The notes beneath the pieces are model-generated. The model made no database searches, was not told the DNA's origin, and was given only the letters and a program-made list of their open reading frames with translations. Of a DNA stretch of 64,000 nt, positions 32,969 to 43,829 are shown piece by piece. Made by a program: the position numbers and the translations under genes. The DNA is from Bernardetia sp. ABR2-2B (GTDB taxonomy: Bacteria; Bacteroidota; Bacteroidia; Cytophagales; Bernardetiaceae), in NCBI RefSeq assembly GCF_037126435.1, contig NZ_CP147020.1:4291001-4355000 (forward strand), written 5' to 3'. The first letter of the stretch is position 1, and each line of letters opens with the position of its first letter.

Positions 32969-35900
32969 TTGGCTACATTAAAACACGGCAGAATAAACTT
33001 TCGCAAAACGACCTCCATTTTAGAATATCCACACTTCTTAGATGTACAGGTAAAGTCGTTTCAAGATTTCTTCCAACTAGGTACTCCTCCTGAAAAAAGA
33101 ACAGCAGACGGACTCTATAAAGTATTTATGGAGAACTTTCCGATTTCTGATTCAAGAGATAACTTTGTTTTGGAATTTGTCGATTATATCATAGACCCAC
33201 CAAAATATTCAGTTCAAGAATGTGTTGATAGAGGTCTTACTTATGCAGTGCCTTTAAAAGCAAAGCTACGTTTACTTTGTAACGACGAAGACAATGAAGA
33301 TTTCGAAACCATTGAACAAGAAGTATTTTTAGGAAATGTTCCTGTAATGACAGAGCGTGGCTCTTTTGTTATTAATGGTGCAGAACGTGTAATCGTTTCT
33401 CAACTTCACCGTTCGCCAGGTGTTTTCTTTGCTCAAAGTAAGCACACTAATGGTACAAAATTATACTCTGCACGTATTATTCCATTCAAAGGTTCTTGGA
33501 TTGAGTTTGCTACGGATGTAAACAATATAATGTATGCTTACATTGACCGTAAGAAAAAATTCCCTGTTACTACTCTTCTTCGTGCTATTGGATATGGTAC
33601 AGATAGAGAAATTTTGGAACTTTTTGGTCTTTCTGAAGAAGTAAAAGCTACAAAGACAAATATTCAGAAAGTAGTAGGTAGAAAATTAGCTGCTCGTGTT
33701 CTCCGTACTTGGACAGAAGATTTCGTAGATGAGGATACAGGAGAAGTTGTAAGTATTACTCGTAATGAGGTGCTTTTGGAGCGTGATTCTGAAATAGAAG
33801 AGGAGCATATCCAAACAATCATTGATTCGAATACAGAATCAATCATTCTTCATAGAGAAGATATTAATATTAATGATTTTGCGATTGTCTATAATACATT
33901 ACAAAAAGATAATTCAAATTCAGAGAAAGAAGCAGTAGAGCAAATTTATCGTCAGCTTCGTAATACAGAAGCTCCAGACGAACAAACAGCTCGTGATGTA
34001 ATTCAAAGTCTTTTCTTTAGTGAAAAGCGTTATGACTTAGGAGAAGTTGGTCGTTATAGAATCAACAGAAAACTAGGTTTGGATTTAGAAATGAGTGTCC
34101 GTGTTCTTACAAAAGAAGACATCATTCGTATCATTAGACATTTGATTACTCTTATTAACTCAAGAGCAGTTGTTGATGATATTGACCACCTTTCTAATCG
34201 TCGTGTACGTACCGTAGGAGAGCAACTTTATAGCCAGTTTGGTGTTGGTTTGGCTCGTATGGCTCGTACTATCAAAGAACGTATGAACGTTCGTGATAAT
34301 GAAGACTTTAAGCCAGTTGATTTGATTAATGCTCGTACTTTATCGTCAGTTATTAATTCTTTCTTCGGAACAAATCAGCTTTCACAGTTTATGGATCAAA
34401 CCAATCCATTAGCAGAAATCACGCATAAGCGTAGAATGTCTGCTCTAGGACCGGGTGGTCTTTCTCGTGAACGTGCAGGTTTTGAGGTTCGTGATGTTCA
34501 TTATACGCACTATGGTCGTTTGTGTACTATCGAAACTCCAGAAGGTCCAAATATTGGTCTAATTTCTTCGCTTTGTGTTCATGCAACTGTAAACGGTATG
34601 GGCTTTATCGAAACGCCTTATCGTATTGTTAAGAATCAAAAAGCTACTGACCAAGTTAAGTTTTTAACAGCAGAAGAAGAAGATGAGCAAATTATTGCAC
34701 AAGCAAACGCAGAATTAGATAACAAAAATAAGTTTACTTCTGACCTTGTAAAGTGTCGCTTAGAAGGAGATTTTCCTTTAGAATCTCCAGAAAATATTAC
34801 ATATATGGATGTTGCTCCAAACCAAATTGTTTCGGTAGCAGCTTCTCTTATTCCATTCTTAGAACATGATGATGCAAACCGTGCCTTGATGGGTTCAAAC
34901 ATGCAGCGTCAAGCAGTTCCTTTATTGCGTCCACAAGCTCCAATCGTAGGTACAGGTCTTGAAAGACGTGTAGCAATGGATTCTAGAGCATTGGTAGTAG
35001 CAGAAGATGATGGAGTAATTGATTATGTAGATTCTAAGAAAATTGTAGTAAAATATAATTGGACAAGCGAACAAAAATTAGTAAACTTCGATAACGAATA
35101 TACTACTTATCAGCTTACAAAATTCCGTAGAACAAACCAAGATACGTGTATCAACTTACGCCCTATCGTTTTGAAAGGCGATAAAGTGAAAAAAGGTGAT
35201 GTTCTTTGTGAAGGATATGCAACTGAAAAAGGAGAACTTGCACTTGGTCGTAACCTTATGGTTGCTTTTATGCCTTGGCAGGGTTATAATTTTGAGGATG
35301 CAATTGTAATTTCTGAAAAAGTAGTAAGAGATGATATTTATACTTCAATCCACATTGACCAATTCGAACTTGAAGTTCGTGATACAAAACGAGGAGAGGA
35401 AGAACTTACTTCTGAAATTCCGAATGTAAGCGAAGACGCAGTTAAAGATTTGGACGAAAACGGTATTATCCGTATTGGTGCAAAAGTAAAAGAACAAGAT
35501 ATTTTGGTAGGTAAAATTACTCCTAAAGGAGAAACAGACCCTACACCAGAAGAAAAACTTCTTCGTGCTATCTTTGGAGATAAAGCAGGTGATGTAAAAG
35601 ATGCTTCTATGCGTGCTTCGGCTTCGCTACAAGGTGTTGTAATCAATACACAGCTTTTCTCTCGTCCTAAAAAGGATAAAGATATGCGTGCCAAAACACG
35701 TAAGCAAGTAGATGTTTTGAAGAAAGAATATAGCCGTGACCTTGTCGGAATGCGTTCGCAGATGATAAATAAGATGGCAGAGCTTTTAGAAGACAGAACT
35801 TCTCAAGGTATTGTTCATAAATATGGAGATGTTGTTTTGGCAAAAGATTCAGGTTTTAATACACAAAACATTGAACAAGCATTCTTCCCAAGCAAAAACG

Positions 35901-36832
35901 CATACCGTGATGAGAGTAACTATAACGTTCCAGAAGAAGTAAACTTTATTGCTGATGTAATATTGAAAGATTTTACAGAAGATGAAGATACAAACGAACT
36001 TTTGGCAGAGCTTGTAAAGAATTACAATCAAAAACGTAATGAAATTACAGCAGAATTCAAACGTCAGCGTTTTGCTTTAGAAGTTGGAGACGAACTTCCA
36101 GCAGGAATTGTAAAACTTGCAAAAGTATATGTTGCTAAAAAACGTAAACTTAAAGTAGGGGATAAGATGGCTGGTCGTCATGGTAATAAAGGAGTTGTGG
36201 CTCGTATTGTTCGTGAAGAAGATATGCCTTTCCTTGCCGATGGTCGTCCTGTTGATATTGTACTGAATCCTCTAGGTGTACCTTCTCGTATGAACTTAGG
36301 TCAGATTTATGAGACTATTTTAGGACACGCAGGTCTTAGAATGGGAACTAAATACGCAACACCTATCTTTGACGGAGCAACAGAAGAAGAAGTAGCGACA
36401 GAAATCAAAAAAGCAGGTTTACCAGAGTGGTGTAAAATGGAAGTTTTTGATGGACGTACTGGAGAAGCATTTGAGCAAACGGTTACAGTAGGTATTATGT
36501 ATATGCTGAAACTGGGTCACTTAGTAGATGACAAAATGCACGCTCGTTCTATCGGACCTTACTCACTCATTACGCAGCAACCTTTGGGTGGTAAAGCTCA
36601 ATTTGGTGGTCAGCGTTTTGGAGAGATGGAAGTTTGGGCATTAGAGGCATTTGGAGCTTCGCATATTTTGAGAGAAATCTTGACAATAAAGTCAGATGAT
36701 GTTCTTGGACGTGCAAAAGCATATGAGTGCATCGTAAAAGGTGATAATATGCCAGAACCAAACATCCCAGAGTCATTTAATGTATTGATACACGAACTTC
36801 GTGGTCTTGCTCTTGAAATTACATTAGATTAA
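32969..36832 (+). CDS. rpoB: RNA polymerase beta subunit
   Basis: This 1287-residue beta subunit carries the full set of conserved segments: [22 protein letters not shown]-type protrusion and fork motifs (seen as FVINGAERV and QLHRSPG), the rifampicin-pocket region [82 protein letters not shown] and the C-terminal [18 protein letters not shown] clamp. The rif-pocket Asp, His and Ser are wild type by sequence. The start is TTG; an in-frame TAA lies 46 bases upstream and no ATG intervenes. A strong terminator follows and rpoC is not downstream. Confidence 0.98.
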
Positions 36833-38036: not shown

Positions 38037-39251
38037 ATGAGTAAAGTATTGATTATTGGTGCTGGTGGAGTGGGTAATGTTGTTGTCAAAAAATGTGCAA
38101 TGTTACCTGATGTTTTTTCAGAAATAACACTTGCCAGTCGTACGCTTCCAAAAGTAGAAGCTGCTGCAGAAGAAGTAAAAGAACTTACGGGAAGAGATAT
38201 TCAGACTGCAAAAGTAGATGCAGATAATGTTCAAGAATTGGTAGCTCTTATCAAAAAAGTTGAACCAAAATTAGTTATTAATGTAGCTCTTCCCTATCAA
38301 GACTTACCAATTATGGATGCTTGTTTGGAAACAAAAACGCATTATTTGGACACAGCCAATTACGAACCAAAAGATGTAGCCAAATTTGAGTATAGTTGGC
38401 AGTGGGCATACAAAAAACGTTTTGAAGAGGCAGGGATTATGGCTCTTTTGGGTTGTGGCTTTGACCCTGGGGTAACTGGAGTTTTTACAGCACATGCAGC
38501 TAAATATCATTTTGATAAAGACGGAATGGAATATTTGGATATTGTAGATTGTAATGCAGGAAGTCATGGAAAAGCATTTGCGACCAATTTTAATCCTGAA
38601 ATCAATATTCGTGAGATTACACAGCGTGGAAAATATTGGGAAAATGGCGATTGGAAAGAAACCGAGCCTTTAGAGGTCAATAGAATGATTAATTACCCAG
38701 AAGTAGGTCCTAAGAAATCATTTTTATTATATCATGAAGAATTAGAATCACTTACCAAAAACTTCCCGTCTCTAAAAAGAGCTAGATTTTGGATGACTTT
38801 TTCAGATGAATATATTACGCATTTGAGAGTATTAGAAAATGTAGGAATGACAAGAATTGATGAAGTGGAATATCAAGGACAAAAAATTGTTCCTCTTCAG
38901 TTTTTAAAAGCTGTTTTGCCAGAACCTTCTTCTTTAGGAGAAAATTACGAAGGACAAACTTCTATTGGTTGCCATATCAGAGGTAAAAAAGATGGAAAAG
39001 ATACTTATTTCTTCATTCACAACAATTGCGACCACGCCAAAACCTACAAAGAACTAGGAGCGCAAGCCGTTTCTTATACAACAGGTGTTCCTGCTATGAT
39101 AGGTGCAAAAATGATGTTGGAAGGAAAATGGATGAAAGCTGGTGTTTGGAATGTAGAAGAATTTAATCCAGATCCTTTTATGGAAGATTTGAATAAATAT
39201 GGTTTGCAATGGCACGAGAAATCAAGTGATTTTGTAGAATTTAATGATTAA
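38037..39251 (+). CDS. Saccharopine-dehydrogenase-family reductase, probably carboxynorspermidine synthase
   Basis: This 404-residue protein has an N-terminal Rossmann fold (VLIIGAGGVGNVVVKKCA) followed by the LYS1-like catalytic domain: LVINVALPYQDLPIMDACLE, YLDTANYEP, GCGFDPGVTGVFTAHAAKY, IGCHIRGKKDGKDTYFFIHNNCDH and VSYTTGVPAMIGAKMM. This set is typical of carboxynorspermidine dehydrogenase, which condenses aspartate semialdehyde with a diamine during norspermidine or spermidine synthesis. The decarboxylase partner (nspC) is not in the window. The polyamine assignment comes from family resemblance. Confidence 0.88.
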   Translation: MSKVLIIGAGGVGNVVVKKCAMLPDVFSEITLASRTLPKVEAAAEEVKELTGRDIQTAKVDADNVQELVALIKKVEPKLVINVALPYQDLPIMDACLETKTHYLDTANYEPKDVAKFEYSWQWAYKKRFEEAGIMALLGCGFDPGVTGVFTAHAAKYHFDKDGMEYLDIVDCNAGSHGKAFATNFNPEINIREITQRGKYWENGDWKETEPLEVNRMINYPEVGPKKSFLLYHEELESLTKNFPSLKRARFWMTFSDEYITHLRVLENVGMTRIDEVEYQGQKIVPLQFLKAVLPEPSSLGENYEGQTSIGCHIRGKKDGKDTYFFIHNNCDHAKTYKELGAQAVSYTTGVPAMIGAKMMLEGKWMKAGVWNVEEFNPDPFMEDLNKYGLQWHEKSSDFVEFND

Positions 39252-39269: not shown

Positions 39270-39315
39270 ATAAAAAAACGGATTCAAATAGTAATGTTCG
39301 AATCCGTTTTTTATT
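39270..39315. terminator. Hairpin terminator, left copy of a 46-bp direct repeat
   Basis: ACGGATTC pairs with GAATCCGT, with A7 and T6 runs outside. The 28-base core (39279-39306), including the unpaired loop AAATAGTAATGTTC, recurs at 41432-41459 with one substitution. The two copies flank the RloA/RloB cassette. Confidence 0.85.
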
Positions 39316-39317
39316 GG

Positions 39318-39992
39318 TTACTCCCTTAGGTTTTCGTTTAGAAGTTCTACAAGTTCATATACTAGACTAGTAGGATTCTGTTTATGATAAGGTAAATTTT
39401 GTTTTTTATGTAAATCATGAAGCTTTTTTGATCTTTTTATAGCTTCACTTTGAGAGGCTTTTTCTTCTTTTTGTAATAACTCATAAATACCACTTGCAAA
39501 TTCCTTTTTTTTACCTACGTTTTCATAACTAATTCCCCAAATTTCACTCAATTTGCCATAATAAAAACTTCTATGATGTTCTGCTTCTGAATATTGATAA
39601 TGTAGATAAAACCACAATTCAAATGAATCATTAGAATAAGCCACCTTATATCCTAAACTCTGCGCCTGAACAATTGAATTATCAAAATCTGCAAACTCTT
39701 TTTCTCCTTGATTTACATCCAAATCAAAAACACACCAAATTTGATCATATTTTTGTTTTTGAGCTAATGTAATTGTACTTTCTACTAATTTCAAATCAGC
39801 TTGTCCTTTCAAATCTATTACCCTAACATCTTTACCCAAAACAGGAAAAGACTCAAAATAGAGTTTTTCAGTTTGTCCTTCGCAAGTAATCAAGATTAAT
39901 TGATTTGCTCTAATTTGTTGTACTTGATAAACTGGTTTAACTACTTTATTCCACGCTTTATTTTGGTCTGTCTTTTTTACTCTTTTAGGCAT
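39318..39992 (-). CDS. RloB-family TOPRIM-like protein (putative nuclease of an AbiL-like defence pair)
   Basis: This 224-residue protein has the RloB pattern: a basic N-terminus, then ITCEGQTEKLYFESF with Glu38 and Glu42, the acidic pair Asp90/Asp92 in CVFDLDVN, and SNDSFELWFYLHYQY. The Glu plus DxD arrangement is that of TOPRIM nucleases such as OLD. RloB genes lie in restriction loci and in the AbiL phage-abortive system (AbiLii), paired with an AAA ATPase. Here the gene overlaps the ATPase gene by 8 bases and is read after it, so the two are translationally coupled. The role in phage defence is inferred from this family context. Confidence 0.85.
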   Translation of the reverse strand: MPKRVKKTDQNKAWNKVVKPVYQVQQIRANQLILITCEGQTEKLYFESFPVLGKDVRVIDLKGQADLKLVESTITLAQKQKYDQIWCVFDLDVNQGEKEFADFDNSIVQAQSLGYKVAYSNDSFELWFYLHYQYSEAEHHRSFYYGKLSEIWGISYENVGKKKEFASGIYELLQKEEKASQSEAIKRSKKLHDLHKKQNLPYHKQNPTSLVYELVELLNENLRE

Positions 39993-41322
39993 CTTTTGAG
40001 ATTGTTTTGGTAGAATAAATAAGTTTATTGAAATCTCCTAGAAATGGAATTGCCCCATATTTTCCACGAATATAATCGCTTTCAAAAGAATCTGAGCTAG
40101 TTACTCCTTCCAATTCTACAAGGGTATATAAATGACTTGCTCCAAATTTATCTTTTTCTACAAAATCTATTTGGTCAGTTCGTAATAATTGATTTGAAAG
40201 TAAATTTGTATCATGGGTTATGAAAATAAGTTGAGCGTTAGTATTTTCAGCAGAATTAAATAATTCTACTATTTTTCTAGTGAGTAATGGATGGAAACGA
40301 GCATCAAATTCATCAATAATTAAAGGAGTGCCTTGCGTCAGGCTTGCATATAGAAATGGGCTTAATTCGAATATTTTTTTTGTTCCTTCTGATTCGCTGT
40401 TTTCAAAATTGAAATTGACCTTTCCTATTATTTTGTTATTCTCATTGTACATATTCCTTGATGAAATTACTATTTCCTCACCTTCATTTTGTTCAAGAAA
40501 TGAAAGAAACTCAGAATTTGTGTTTTCATTGATTAATGTCCTAAAATGTTCTCTAGGCTTAACTTTGATCAAAGAAAAATCTTGTAACCCAACGTCAGCA
40601 TATTTGAGCAGATTTATAGTATAATCTTTAGCTTTTTTATCTTTTAGTAAAACTTTGGCTTTATTAAAGATATTTTCTTCTGTAATTCCTTGTATTATAA
40701 TGATTGATTCAAATGATTCAAGTATTAATTTTGATATTTTACCAAAACCTAAAGCTACTAAAGTAGATAAAAATAAAGCATTATCTCTATACACTTGATT
40801 TTCATCTCCCTCTCCTAATACATGTAATAATTTATAGCCCTCTTCAAACTGCTTTTTATTTATTGTATCTATTTTATTATCCTCTCTAATAAATAAAACT
40901 ACTTCATCTTTTTCTTCAATAAGAAACAACCATTCGCTAACAACCTTCTGCCTCGTTACTTCGAATCCGTATCTATATTTTTTTTTGTTGGTAGTAAAAA
41001 TAAGTTGAAAAAAAGTAGGTTCATCTTGAGAGGATGTTAATAATTTAAAGCTTTCTGATAGAAGAAGGACATCATTTCTTTTCACAGATTCAAGTACGAT
41101 GATAATAAATGTATAGAAAGCTGCTACAATATTACTCTTACCACTAGCATTTGCGCCATAAATAGCTTTTGATTTTAGTAAAGAATCAAAACTATCTGAA
41201 TAAATTACATTATTTTTATCAATTTCTTTATTTTCAGAAACAATATCAGCAGCATTCATATTTAAAGATTGAATATCTTTAAAAGAGCGAAAATTACCAA
41301 AACTAAAATTTTCTATCAGCAT
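39985..41322 (-). CDS. RloA-like AAA15/ABC-type ATPase (AbiLi-like defence ATPase)
   Basis: This 445-residue ATPase begins with the AAA15 strand MLIENFSFGNFRSFKDIQSL and has Walker A GANASGKSN at residues 56-64. Further on are the signature region SEGTKKIFELSPF, Walker B LIIDEFDARFHPLLTRKIVELF, and the switch His in FITHDTNLL. This build is shared by ATPases of OLD, PARIS, Gabija and AbiL/RloA systems, in which the ATPase senses phage or DNA and controls a TOPRIM partner. The RloB gene follows with overlap. A TATTTTTG promoter element ends only 6 bases before the start codon. The cassette is bracketed by duplicated terminators, pointing to acquisition as a unit. Confidence 0.87.
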   Translation of the reverse strand: MLIENFSFGNFRSFKDIQSLNMNAADIVSENKEIDKNNVIYSDSFDSLLKSKAIYGANASGKSNIVAAFYTFIIIVLESVKRNDVLLLSESFKLLTSSQDEPTFFQLIFTTNKKKYRYGFEVTRQKVVSEWLFLIEEKDEVVLFIREDNKIDTINKKQFEEGYKLLHVLGEGDENQVYRDNALFLSTLVALGFGKISKLILESFESIIIIQGITEENIFNKAKVLLKDKKAKDYTINLLKYADVGLQDFSLIKVKPREHFRTLINENTNSEFLSFLEQNEGEEIVISSRNMYNENNKIIGKVNFNFENSESEGTKKIFELSPFLYASLTQGTPLIIDEFDARFHPLLTRKIVELFNSAENTNAQLIFITHDTNLLSNQLLRTDQIDFVEKDKFGASHLYTLVELEGVTSSDSFESDYIRGKYGAIPFLGDFNKLIYSTKTISKDA

Positions 41323-41423
41323 TTTTACAAAAATATATAGATTAAATAATTAGTTAAATATACGATTTTTAGTGTAAAAGTAATCAAGCAAAAAAAATGT
41401 TTTTTTTGATAAAACCTGTATCT

Positions 41424-41469
41424 ATAAAAAACGGATTCAAACAGTAATGTTCGAATCCGTTTTTTTATT
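41424..41469. terminator. Hairpin terminator, right copy of a 46-bp direct repeat
   Basis: The same hairpin as at 39270-39315: core 41432-41459 differs by one base (loop AAACAG instead of AAATAG), and the A/T runs are A6 and T7. It lies between the ATPase gene's upstream region and the end of the M1 peptidase gene. Confidence 0.85.
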
Positions 41470-41498: not shown

Positions 41499-43829
41499 CT
41501 ATTTTTTCTTCTTTTGCATTTGCATTGGATTAGGAGAAGAATAATTATTATCTCTTCTATAAAGCTCAAAACGAGTAGGAACTTCTTGACGTGGATAAGA
41601 GTTATTGTAAACATCTGTATCAGCTGTTTCCAAATTTGGGTCTAACTGAAAAGAAGCTACTTTTTTCTTTGTCATAAAGACTTTGCTAAACATTTCGTTG
41701 TTTTTTCTCCAAACCTCAGCAGGAATCTTTTGCGTTTCCTTGCTTCCATCAGCATACGTAAATTCAATAATTACAGGCATTACAAGTCCTCCTATATTTT
41801 TGAAATTTATCTGATAGAAATAAGGATTTTCTTTGACAAAAGTACGCTCTTCGTCTGTTAGACTATTCATATAACTTTCATAGTTTTTCTTTGCTTCAGC
41901 TTCTGTAATTCCGTCATCATAAGAATTATAGAAATCTTTAAGCTGTGGACGACGCTCCAAACGAGTTGTCTTCAAGGCTGTTTTGTTTCTGTGTGAAGTA
42001 ATACTTACCACTTCCTCTTCATTTACTTTTTCCATCTCAGCAGCTAAAGATTTTGGTTCAAAGAACATTACATCTTCAATTGAAATATCTACATTATCAG
42101 TCGTGTAGAACCAACCCCACCAAAACCAATCTAAATCAGTTCCAGAAGCATCTTCCATCGTACGGAAGAAGTCAGCAGGTTTTGGATGCTTAAATGCCCA
42201 ACGTTGAGAATATTCTTTAAACGCATAGTCAAAAAGCTCTCTTCCCATTACAGTTTCTCTCAAAATATTAAGAGCTGTTGCAGGTTTCCCATAGGCGTTA
42301 TTTCCAAACTGCAAAATCTCTTCTGAGTCTGTCATAATCGGCATAATACCAGCTTTTGAGCCTTTCATGTAATCTACAATATCTTTTGCATTTCCACGTC
42401 TTGAAGGATAATCACGTTGCCATTCTTCTTCTGTAATGAATTGCATAAACGTATTCAAACCTTCATCCATCCACGTCCAATGACGCTCATCAGAATTGAT
42501 AATCATAGGGAAGAAATTATGTCCTACTTCGTGAATAATTACTGAAATCATTGCATGTTTAATTCTTGAAGAATATGTTCCGTCTGTTTCTGGTCTTCCT
42601 CCATTAAAACAAATCATTGGATATTCCATTCCCCAAACAGGACCGTGAACAGAAATAGCAACAGGATAAGGATAATCAATGGTATGCTTAGAATATACTT
42701 CTAATGTATGCGCCACAACTTCGGTAGAATATTGTCCCCAAAGAGGATTTCCTTCTTTTGGATAATATGACATTGCCATAACCGTTTTACCATTTGGCAT
42801 CTTTACGCCCATTGCATCCCAAATAAATTTTCTAGAAGTAGCAAACGCAAAATCACGTACATTTTCAGCTCTAAATTTCCATGTCTTTGTGTCTTTTGCT
42901 TTATTTTTCTCTGCTTTTTCAGCTTCTTTTTGTGTAACAATCACGACAGGAATATCAGAAGTTTGTGCTTTTGCCCAACGTTCTTTTTGATCAGCAGTCA
43001 AAACTTCGTCTGGATTTTGAAGAACACCTGTTGCACCCAAAACGTGATCAGCAGGAACAGTCATTTCTACATCATAATCTCCAAACTCTAAAGCAAACTC
43101 GCCACGTCCTAAAAATTGCTTGTGTAACCAACCATTTACGTCATCATAAACTGCCATTCTTGGGAAAAATTGAGCTATTTCATATAAATAATTCTTATCA
43201 TCTTCAAAATATTCATAACCACTTCTACCACCATATTTTAGTTGGTCTTGAATGTTATAGTTCCATTTTATCTGAAAAGAATATTTCTCATTTGGCTTCA
43301 ATACTGTCGGTAAGTCTATTCTCATCATCGTTCTGTTGATGGTATGAGGTAGTGCTGTGCCATCAGTTGTCATTACGCCTTCGATATTAAATCCTCCTTC
43401 AAAATCTGAATCTCCTGTTACATAAGAAATCCCACGCAATGTAGTTTTTTCATTGAGTGTTCCTGTTGAAGTTTTGTAAGTATCAGAATCTTTTGCTCTC
43501 ATATTTTGGTCTAATTGTACCCAAAAGTAAGAAAGTTCGTCTGGCGAATTATTATGATACGTAATTGTTTCTTGTCCTGTAATACGCTGTTTTTCGTCGT
43601 CTAAAGTAAGCTTGATTTTGTAATCTACTTTTTGCTGCCAATATTTATGCCCCGGTGCGCCCGAACCTGCACGATAGACATTCGGTGTGGGAAGTTCCTG
43701 TTCTAGTTGTTTGAAGTAAGAACGATTGATATTTTTGTCTCGTTGTGCGAAAGCATTTTGAGAAGCGAATGAAATAAACATGCCTACTATAAAAAGTAAC
43801 ATGTTGGAATAGTTGTATTTAATATTCAT
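41499..43829 (-). CDS. M1-family zinc metallopeptidase, secreted
   Basis: A signal peptide (ending SQNAFAQ) precedes a 776-residue M1 aminopeptidase-like protein. The N-terminal beta domain (about 60-230) carries ITGQETITYHNNSP. The catalytic domain has a GMEYPMI substrate-binding motif and HEVGHNFFP with WMDEGLNTF, giving the HExxH-x18-E zinc site. The C-terminus ends in a Met/Gln/Lys-rich tail after RRDNNYSSPNP. It would trim peptides in the periplasm or outside the cell. It is the convergent neighbour of the polyamine gene across the RloA/RloB cassette. A TAAATTTG element (43912-43905, minus strand) lies about 80 bases upstream. Confidence 0.93.
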   Translation of the reverse strand: MNIKYNYSNMLLFIVGMFISFASQNAFAQRDKNINRSYFKQLEQELPTPNVYRAGSGAPGHKYWQQKVDYKIKLTLDDEKQRITGQETITYHNNSPDELSYFWVQLDQNMRAKDSDTYKTSTGTLNEKTTLRGISYVTGDSDFEGGFNIEGVMTTDGTALPHTINRTMMRIDLPTVLKPNEKYSFQIKWNYNIQDQLKYGGRSGYEYFEDDKNYLYEIAQFFPRMAVYDDVNGWLHKQFLGRGEFALEFGDYDVEMTVPADHVLGATGVLQNPDEVLTADQKERWAKAQTSDIPVVIVTQKEAEKAEKNKAKDTKTWKFRAENVRDFAFATSRKFIWDAMGVKMPNGKTVMAMSYYPKEGNPLWGQYSTEVVAHTLEVYSKHTIDYPYPVAISVHGPVWGMEYPMICFNGGRPETDGTYSSRIKHAMISVIIHEVGHNFFPMIINSDERHWTWMDEGLNTFMQFITEEEWQRDYPSRRGNAKDIVDYMKGSKAGIMPIMTDSEEILQFGNNAYGKPATALNILRETVMGRELFDYAFKEYSQRWAFKHPKPADFFRTMEDASGTDLDWFWWGWFYTTDNVDISIEDVMFFEPKSLAAEMEKVNEEEVVSITSHRNKTALKTTRLERRPQLKDFYNSYDDGITEAEAKKNYESYMNSLTDEERTFVKENPYFYQINFKNIGGLVMPVIIEFTYADGSKETQKIPAEVWRKNNEMFSKVFMTKKKVASFQLDPNLETADTDVYNNSYPRQEVPTRFELYRRDNNYSSPNPMQMQKKKK

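Follow-up and report, generated by a model that had tools for sequence, protein, structure and literature searches.

How did a two-gene defence module come to lie between two nearly identical terminator-like hairpins, with no visible mobile element beside it? The question is raised by an RloA/RloB pair on the main contig of Bernardetia sp. ABR2-2B, within the 64-kb stretch analysed here (the window). An earlier note had proposed that the pair inserted into a terminator once shared by two convergent genes and duplicated it. The locus holds a known defence pair, inserted with a copied local terminator, and in its details the event differs from that proposal. We consider it probable that RloAB was acquired between two convergent core genes, with the upstream gene's terminator copied in place of that of the M1 peptidase gene, and that the same outcome recurs in the genus. 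The matter bears on the routes by which genomes gain small defence and toxin-antitoxin modules when no mobile element is visible.

Table 1. Features of the RloAB locus, with positions in the window
Feature	Position	Strand	Basis or remarks
Carboxynorspermidine synthase-like gene (saccharopine dehydrogenase family), left neighbour	38037..39251	+	ORF; Pfam Sacchrp_dh_C, Sacchrp_dh_NADP
Left hairpin, T1	39273..39312	.	Bidirectional terminator-like; belongs to the upstream gene; 5 nt separate its end from the RloB stop codon
RloB / AbiLii, 224 aa	39318..39992	-	Pfam, PADLOC; conserved E38, D90, D92, SNxxFExWxxLH
RloA / AbiLi, 445 aa, ABC-type ATPase	39985..41322	-	Walker A GANASGKS 56, Walker B LIIDEFD 334, THD 369
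Leader between T2 and rloA, 103 nt	41323..41425	-	Putative promoter of the cassette itself
Right hairpin, T2	41426..41465	.	Copy of T1 at the site where relatives carry a different M1 terminator
M1-family peptidase gene, right neighbour, convergent	41499..43829	-	ORF; Pfam

The two genes overlap by 8 nt, with RloB directly downstream of RloA. What had been described as an ATPase gene and an overlapping RloB gene on the minus strand is an intact RloA/RloB operon of the AbiL type. RloA matched Pfam AAA_21 (3.9e-31) and PADLOC AbiLi (6.7e-83), and RloB matched Pfam RloB (PF13707; 3.5e-40) and PADLOC AbiLii (7.5e-25). The AbiL profiles were the best in PADLOC for each protein; NCBIfam had no match for either. 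The GC content of RloAB was 28.5%, compared to 35.5% and 35.6% in the neighbours. The best NCBIfam model for the left neighbour was carboxynorspermidine synthase, at a score below the cut-off (403.5 of 800 bits).

Motifs that we take to be Walker A, Walker B and the H-loop were present in RloA and aligned with those of homologues. In RloB, presumably of TOPRIM type, D90 and D92 were invariant and E38 was conserved in at least 90% of 40 sequences; E38 and D90 stood at the positions given for them previously, and all three residues are probably catalytic. In a structure model of RloB (pLDDT 91.5), E38 follows the strand 31-37 and D90/D92 are at the strand 84-91. Foldseek returned general Rossmann-like matches to this model, none at E <= 0.001, and singled out no TOPRIM structure. 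A sequence search of the PDB gave one distinct ATPase sequence for RloA (3.2e-4) and nothing below 0.012 for RloB.

By analogy with related systems, the role of sensor would fall to RloA and that of RNase effector to RloB. RloA would keep the TOPRIM-like nuclease silent until a phage trigger freed it, and RNA cutting would then stop translation and abort the infection. This scheme resembles the account of AriA and AriB in PMC12409363, where AriA holds AriB and phage proteins release AriB to cut tRNA; PARIS is treated in PMC10568477 as a two-gene relative of OLD nucleases. Like PARIS, RloAB has separate genes for an ABC ATPase and a nuclease, presumably TOPRIM-type in RloB, and the AriA profile also matches RloA. 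RloB differs in having matched only Pfam RloB and PADLOC AbiLii at 0.001, although an AriB model may not have been in the libraries. The likeness to AbiL (AbiLi/AbiLii of Lactococcus lactis) and to other RloA/RloB pairs extends to gene order, the ATPase followed by RloB. In the account of PMC10440598, AbiL is plasmid-borne, whereas RloAB of the window lies on the main contig between copied terminators. The same source relates RloB to OLD_TOPRIM domains and AbiLii, includes an RloB-type toxin (node D44) with an AAA partner among its toxin-antitoxin toxicity-neutralisation tests, and describes a phage screen of another AAA pair as giving no hits.

The hairpins T1 and T2 are direct repeats, identical at 39 of 40 bases without a gap. 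The one-base difference reported before within a 28-base core is correct (27/28), and the repeat itself stands as 40 bp of ungapped near-identity; the 46 bp claimed for it are reached only if the A and T runs are shifted by one base. When T1 and T2 were folded on both strands, the hairpins had energies of -17.4 to -22.3 kcal/mol, and none of 200 shuffles of each was as stable. Stable folds on both strands give them the look of bidirectional terminators. The terminal loop was 4 nt in three of the four folded strands and 8 nt on the minus strand of the left copy, so the stretch formerly taken for an unpaired loop is partly paired.

Recurrence of the core at many unrelated sites, named in the earlier note as an argument against an insertion, did not occur. 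With up to three mismatches allowed, the core matched twice in the window and never in 100 shuffles, and the exact pattern was found at T1 and T2 only in the entire genome, which argues against a common genomic repeat. The exact pattern, with diverged relatives of the hairpin left uncounted, was absent from the 38 other genomes of the relatives panel, and with five free positions, otherwise exact, it had no match in viral contigs. Between T1 and T2, rloA and rloB were the only plausible genes by ORFs and Pfam; the third ORF of at least 80 aa (114 aa, 40280-40624) is antisense within rloA. Neither a recombinase nor a transposase was found there by the same means. This distinguishes the locus from an integrase-borne island with attL and attR, and it does not class as a transposon with target duplication. 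Among 25 of 46 listed pairs, the longest inverted repeat was the palindromic terminator pair itself.

Comparison with relatives in the genus (G001 to G006, with G000 the genome under study) shows what the junction looks like elsewhere. RloAB was absent between the same two convergent genes in G002 and G006, where the aligned coding ends, stop codons included, are 380 bp and 332 bp apart, respectively. An empty site had been predicted to hold one copy of the repeat. Instead, G006 has a T1-like hairpin of the upstream gene (3/28 differences), then a spacer and a different hairpin before M1, and G002 has an M1-type terminator only. The M1 hairpin, which differs from T1, adjoins M1 in five of the six genus relatives (G001, G002, G004, G005 and G006) and stays beside M1 even where the upstream gene is located elsewhere; G003 and G008 have other hairpins. 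A T1-like hairpin also lies downstream of the left-neighbour orthologue in G005 (5 differences from T1, 4 from T2), with a weaker one in G001, and none was found in G002, G003 or G004. The presence of such a hairpin after the same gene in G005 and G006 indicates that T1 is native.

The M1-side flank beyond the T run is native as well, and T2 joins it via GTTTTTTTATTTC, which is common to G002 and compatible with a joint within the T run. Because five of the six relatives have a different M1 terminator, T2 appears to have replaced it, and a terminator common to both genes was not cleanly duplicated. A single shared terminator, later duplicated, could have existed as an in-between state. Thus the proposal of an insertion is supported, with RloAB absent from G002 and G006, and that of a shared terminator, as it was put, is not. 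The opposite pattern, in which all relatives have both copies, did not occur; none was seen with both T1 and T2. The relatives compared at this junction are other species with different spacers, no strain-level empty site being among them, and the comparison supports RloAB as an insertion. The two hairpins differ at 1 of 28 core bases and each differs from that of G006 at 3 of 28, suggesting that the copying was recent.

RloAB occurs patchily, which fits a module acquired by transfer; its lower GC content likewise supports an insertion. RloA was matched in 4 of 11 genomes of the family panel, including its own, with 29, 37 and 40% identity in the other three, and RloB in 39 of 194 genomes of the order panel, own genome included. 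Of 72,556 plasmid records, 171 had an RloA match, all below 60% identity, and two phage records matched RloB. In a scan of genome contigs, RloB was beside RloA in 77 of 80 loci. At one locus (L112:411-3698) about 1.3 kb of other sequence lies between the two.

Bracketing by terminators does not appear to be a general property of these cassettes. Hairpins were found on both sides of 17 of 69 RloAB cassettes, and matching pairs (score at least 18) flanked two, the window included, which weakens the idea; the RloAB regions of G001, G003 and G008 had no matching pair. Any direct repeat of the same score within 700 bp was seen at 7 of 69 cassettes, window included, compared to 7 of 220 mock cassettes, the latter seven stemming from 3 of 50 loci. 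Two candidates for a second RloAB with copied terminators were rejected. At L184 the pattern has three copies in that genome, and at L161 (Cytophagales) the repeat belongs to an IS91-type element. There (L161:1973-7489), RloAB lies between this element, with a Y2 transposase and a tyrosine recombinase, and a copy of apparently its two ends only, possibly a miniature IS91 derivative. IS91-family elements thus offer a likeness, in that the terminal repeat of the neighbouring element recurs after RloAB at L161; the window locus differs in having neither a transposase nor such ends.

To see whether the pattern extends beyond this locus, close hairpin pairs were surveyed in G000 (864 kb, the window among them) and in G001 and G002 (400 kb from each), where 1095 terminator-like hairpins were found in all. 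Pairs were scored for similarity, with a threshold of at least 18, and called near when within 8 kb. Near pairs reached the threshold in 12 of 4993 cases, compared to 37 of 231954 for more distant pairs (Fisher p 3e-10). The 12 near pairs form ten loci, of which six bracket accessory genes, three are tandem paralogues and one (G001_273) is counted with neither. With the six accessory pairs alone the Fisher p was 3e-4, set against unedited distant pairs. Near pairs are separated by gene-sized distances, only one of the 12 being below 500 bp. At G001_260 and G002_257 they lie within tandem-duplicated coding genes, and at G000_190 two paralogues, 80% identical over 759 aa, have the same terminator after each. 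In 80 RloAB loci of other lineages, 6 of 1188 near pairs reached the same score. This rate is not lower, suggesting that close hairpin pairs are not special to the genus and have several causes. Three distant genes (window 19047, L190:16559 and G000:C1 near 4625742) share a nearly identical terminator, which suggests that terminator copies are also dispersed.

The six bracketing loci are RloAB, NrdB/RpoC and SDR/SpoIIM in G000, LpxB/MnmG and NAT/esterase in G002, and aconitase/symporter in G001. At four of the six, the module is missing from some relatives, which have a single terminator copy. At SDR/SpoIIM, two copies surround a 169-aa ORF in G000, G002 and G006 have a single copy and no module, and no such stem is present in G001, G003 or G004. 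At NrdB/RpoC, the copies surround a helix-hairpin-helix gene and HigBA in G000, and again a single copy without the module is found in G002 and G006; in G001 and G004 a lone copy on the rpoC side accompanies other genes, the comparison at this locus covering G001, G002, G004 and G006. At LpxB/MnmG, a DUF4476 gene lies between two copies in G002 and G000 has one copy without a module. One copy with other left neighbours was found there in G001 and G004, and neither copy in G003 or in G006 (G005 left out); G006, which is close to G002, has a different gene at this site. At aconitase/symporter, HigBA lies between two copies in G001, and one copy was found within the 1.5-kb flank in all six relatives. 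Beyond this terminator are the symporter start in G002 and G004 (by eye), a nuclease-type ORF in G000 and G006, and another ORF in G003. The relatives are mixed at NAT/esterase, where the copies in G002 surround a cyclic-nucleotide-binding regulator and a DJ-1 gene. In G001 the two copies surround a DoxX-like gene, in G000 both the hairpin and the upstream gene are different, and G006 resembles G002 where seen.

Although 82% identical over 715 nt, the HigBA modules of G000 and G001 occupy different loci, each between the terminators of its own locus. The second copy is inverted at NrdB/RpoC; for the SDR/SpoIIM pair the alignment score is higher in inverted than in direct orientation. An accessory module between copied local terminators would thus be a recurring signature in the genus, produced by a mechanism that we infer. 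As for the earlier suggestion that the terminator is an insertion site for defence modules, the T1/T2 repeat gave no second cassette (exact pattern, 39 genomes); the wider idea of core-gene terminators receiving accessory modules is supported at other loci, by other terminators.

Accessory genes gather in hotspots at conserved intergenic sites. The loci described here resemble such hotspots in that one junction holds different genes in different species, for example at the rpoC and mnmG terminators, and differ from them in that the terminator of the locus itself occurs twice, once on each side of the module. Not every accessory gene next to a terminator comes with a second copy: the Fic/Doc gene at the mnmG terminator of G004 has none, and neither do the genes by the aconitase terminator of G000 and G006. 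The gene inserted upstream of the aconitase terminator in G000 (L309/L311 regions) is of the PDDEXK_3 family, with a similar ORF in G006, and appears by eye to be flanked in G000 by another direct repeat of about 50 bases. Outside the survey, a VapBC-like PIN-domain pair lies between near-identical hairpins (score 33) beside the rpoC terminator of G004 (L295:1518-2309).

In the favoured explanation, a complete AbiL-type operon would have entered the lineage between the two convergent core genes, and the M1 terminator at its distal end would have given way to a copy of the upstream one. The terminator hairpin may stall synthesis and the A and T runs may supply short homology, so that a nascent end would copy a foreign fragment and return via a second hairpin copy in either orientation. 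Selection would retain one terminator per gene. With a terminator on each side, the cassette would be insulated on both sides and both core genes would keep a terminator. Our confidence concerns mainly the insertion and its recurrence; the repair or template-switch route is itself put forward tentatively. It is favoured by the inverted alignments at NrdB/RpoC and SDR/SpoIIM, by the finding of no recombinase family in the six modules and by a T2 joint that may lie in the T run. An inverted second copy fits template copying better than a staggered-cut duplication.

The direct orientation of T1 and T2 is equally expected from a site-specific or duplicating insertion. In this alternative, which we regard as unlikely, a trans-acting enzyme recognises the terminator in its hairpin or cruciform form, and the complete palindrome ends up on either side of the insert, in the manner of a transposon-like insertion with target duplication. 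Copies that are identical at 39 of 40 bases, loop included, would follow naturally, as would hairpins that differ in sequence between loci and share their structure, and the single copies in some relatives at four loci. Yet at the six accessory loci Pfam found no recombinase or transposase family among the bracketed genes (the 169-aa ORF matched nothing), no common cassette ends were seen by eye, one pair is inverted, and T2 took the place of a different terminator rather than leaving it downstream.

Quite improbable, in our judgement, is an ordinary lateral insertion with a later gene conversion, unrelated to it, that overwrote the M1 terminator with T1 sequence. The two terminators do share an A run, ATTC...GAAT and a T run, and the native M1-side flank agrees with conversion, but the exchange would have to occur between weakly similar 40-bp sequences. 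It would also have to coincide with an insertion at several loci, where near pairs are gene-sized distances apart and only 1 of 12 is below 500 bp. Tandem duplication of a gene with its terminator, and later replacement or decay of one gene copy, accounts for G000_190 and perhaps two further near pairs in tandem paralogues, and an RDD-gene-like fragment just downstream of the left-neighbour orthologue in G001 indicates that duplications do occur at this junction, but it is scarcely credible for RloAB, as Pfam relates neither RloA nor RloB to either neighbour and no second neighbour copy lies between the two genes in G002 or G006.

Returning to insertion with a copied terminator, the combination of a locus-specific repeated scar with single-copy sites in relatives provides a definite signature, open to searches and tests, and would explain how genes are added between core genes without disturbing their transcription. 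A search of titles and abstract openings, with most subscription papers outside its scope, returned no account of duplicated bacterial terminators around accessory modules. A broader reading, possible though rather doubtful, is that small defence and toxin-antitoxin modules of the genus generally land at core-gene terminators, the local terminator being copied across; if so, newcomers would arrive transcriptionally insulated and carrying no recombinase.

Two further observations were made in passing. In the window, rpoB is followed by an opposing RDD-family gene (32969-36832; Pfam), and the 3' part of rpoC was found about 2.4 Mb away (G000:C1 near 1884106, L225:14106-16448; Pfam), so that the two genes seem to lie apart in this genome. 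A REP-like TTGT(C/T)GGTGTC hairpin with its complement recurs, by eye, near gene ends across the genus (L278, L211, L286, L009 and others).
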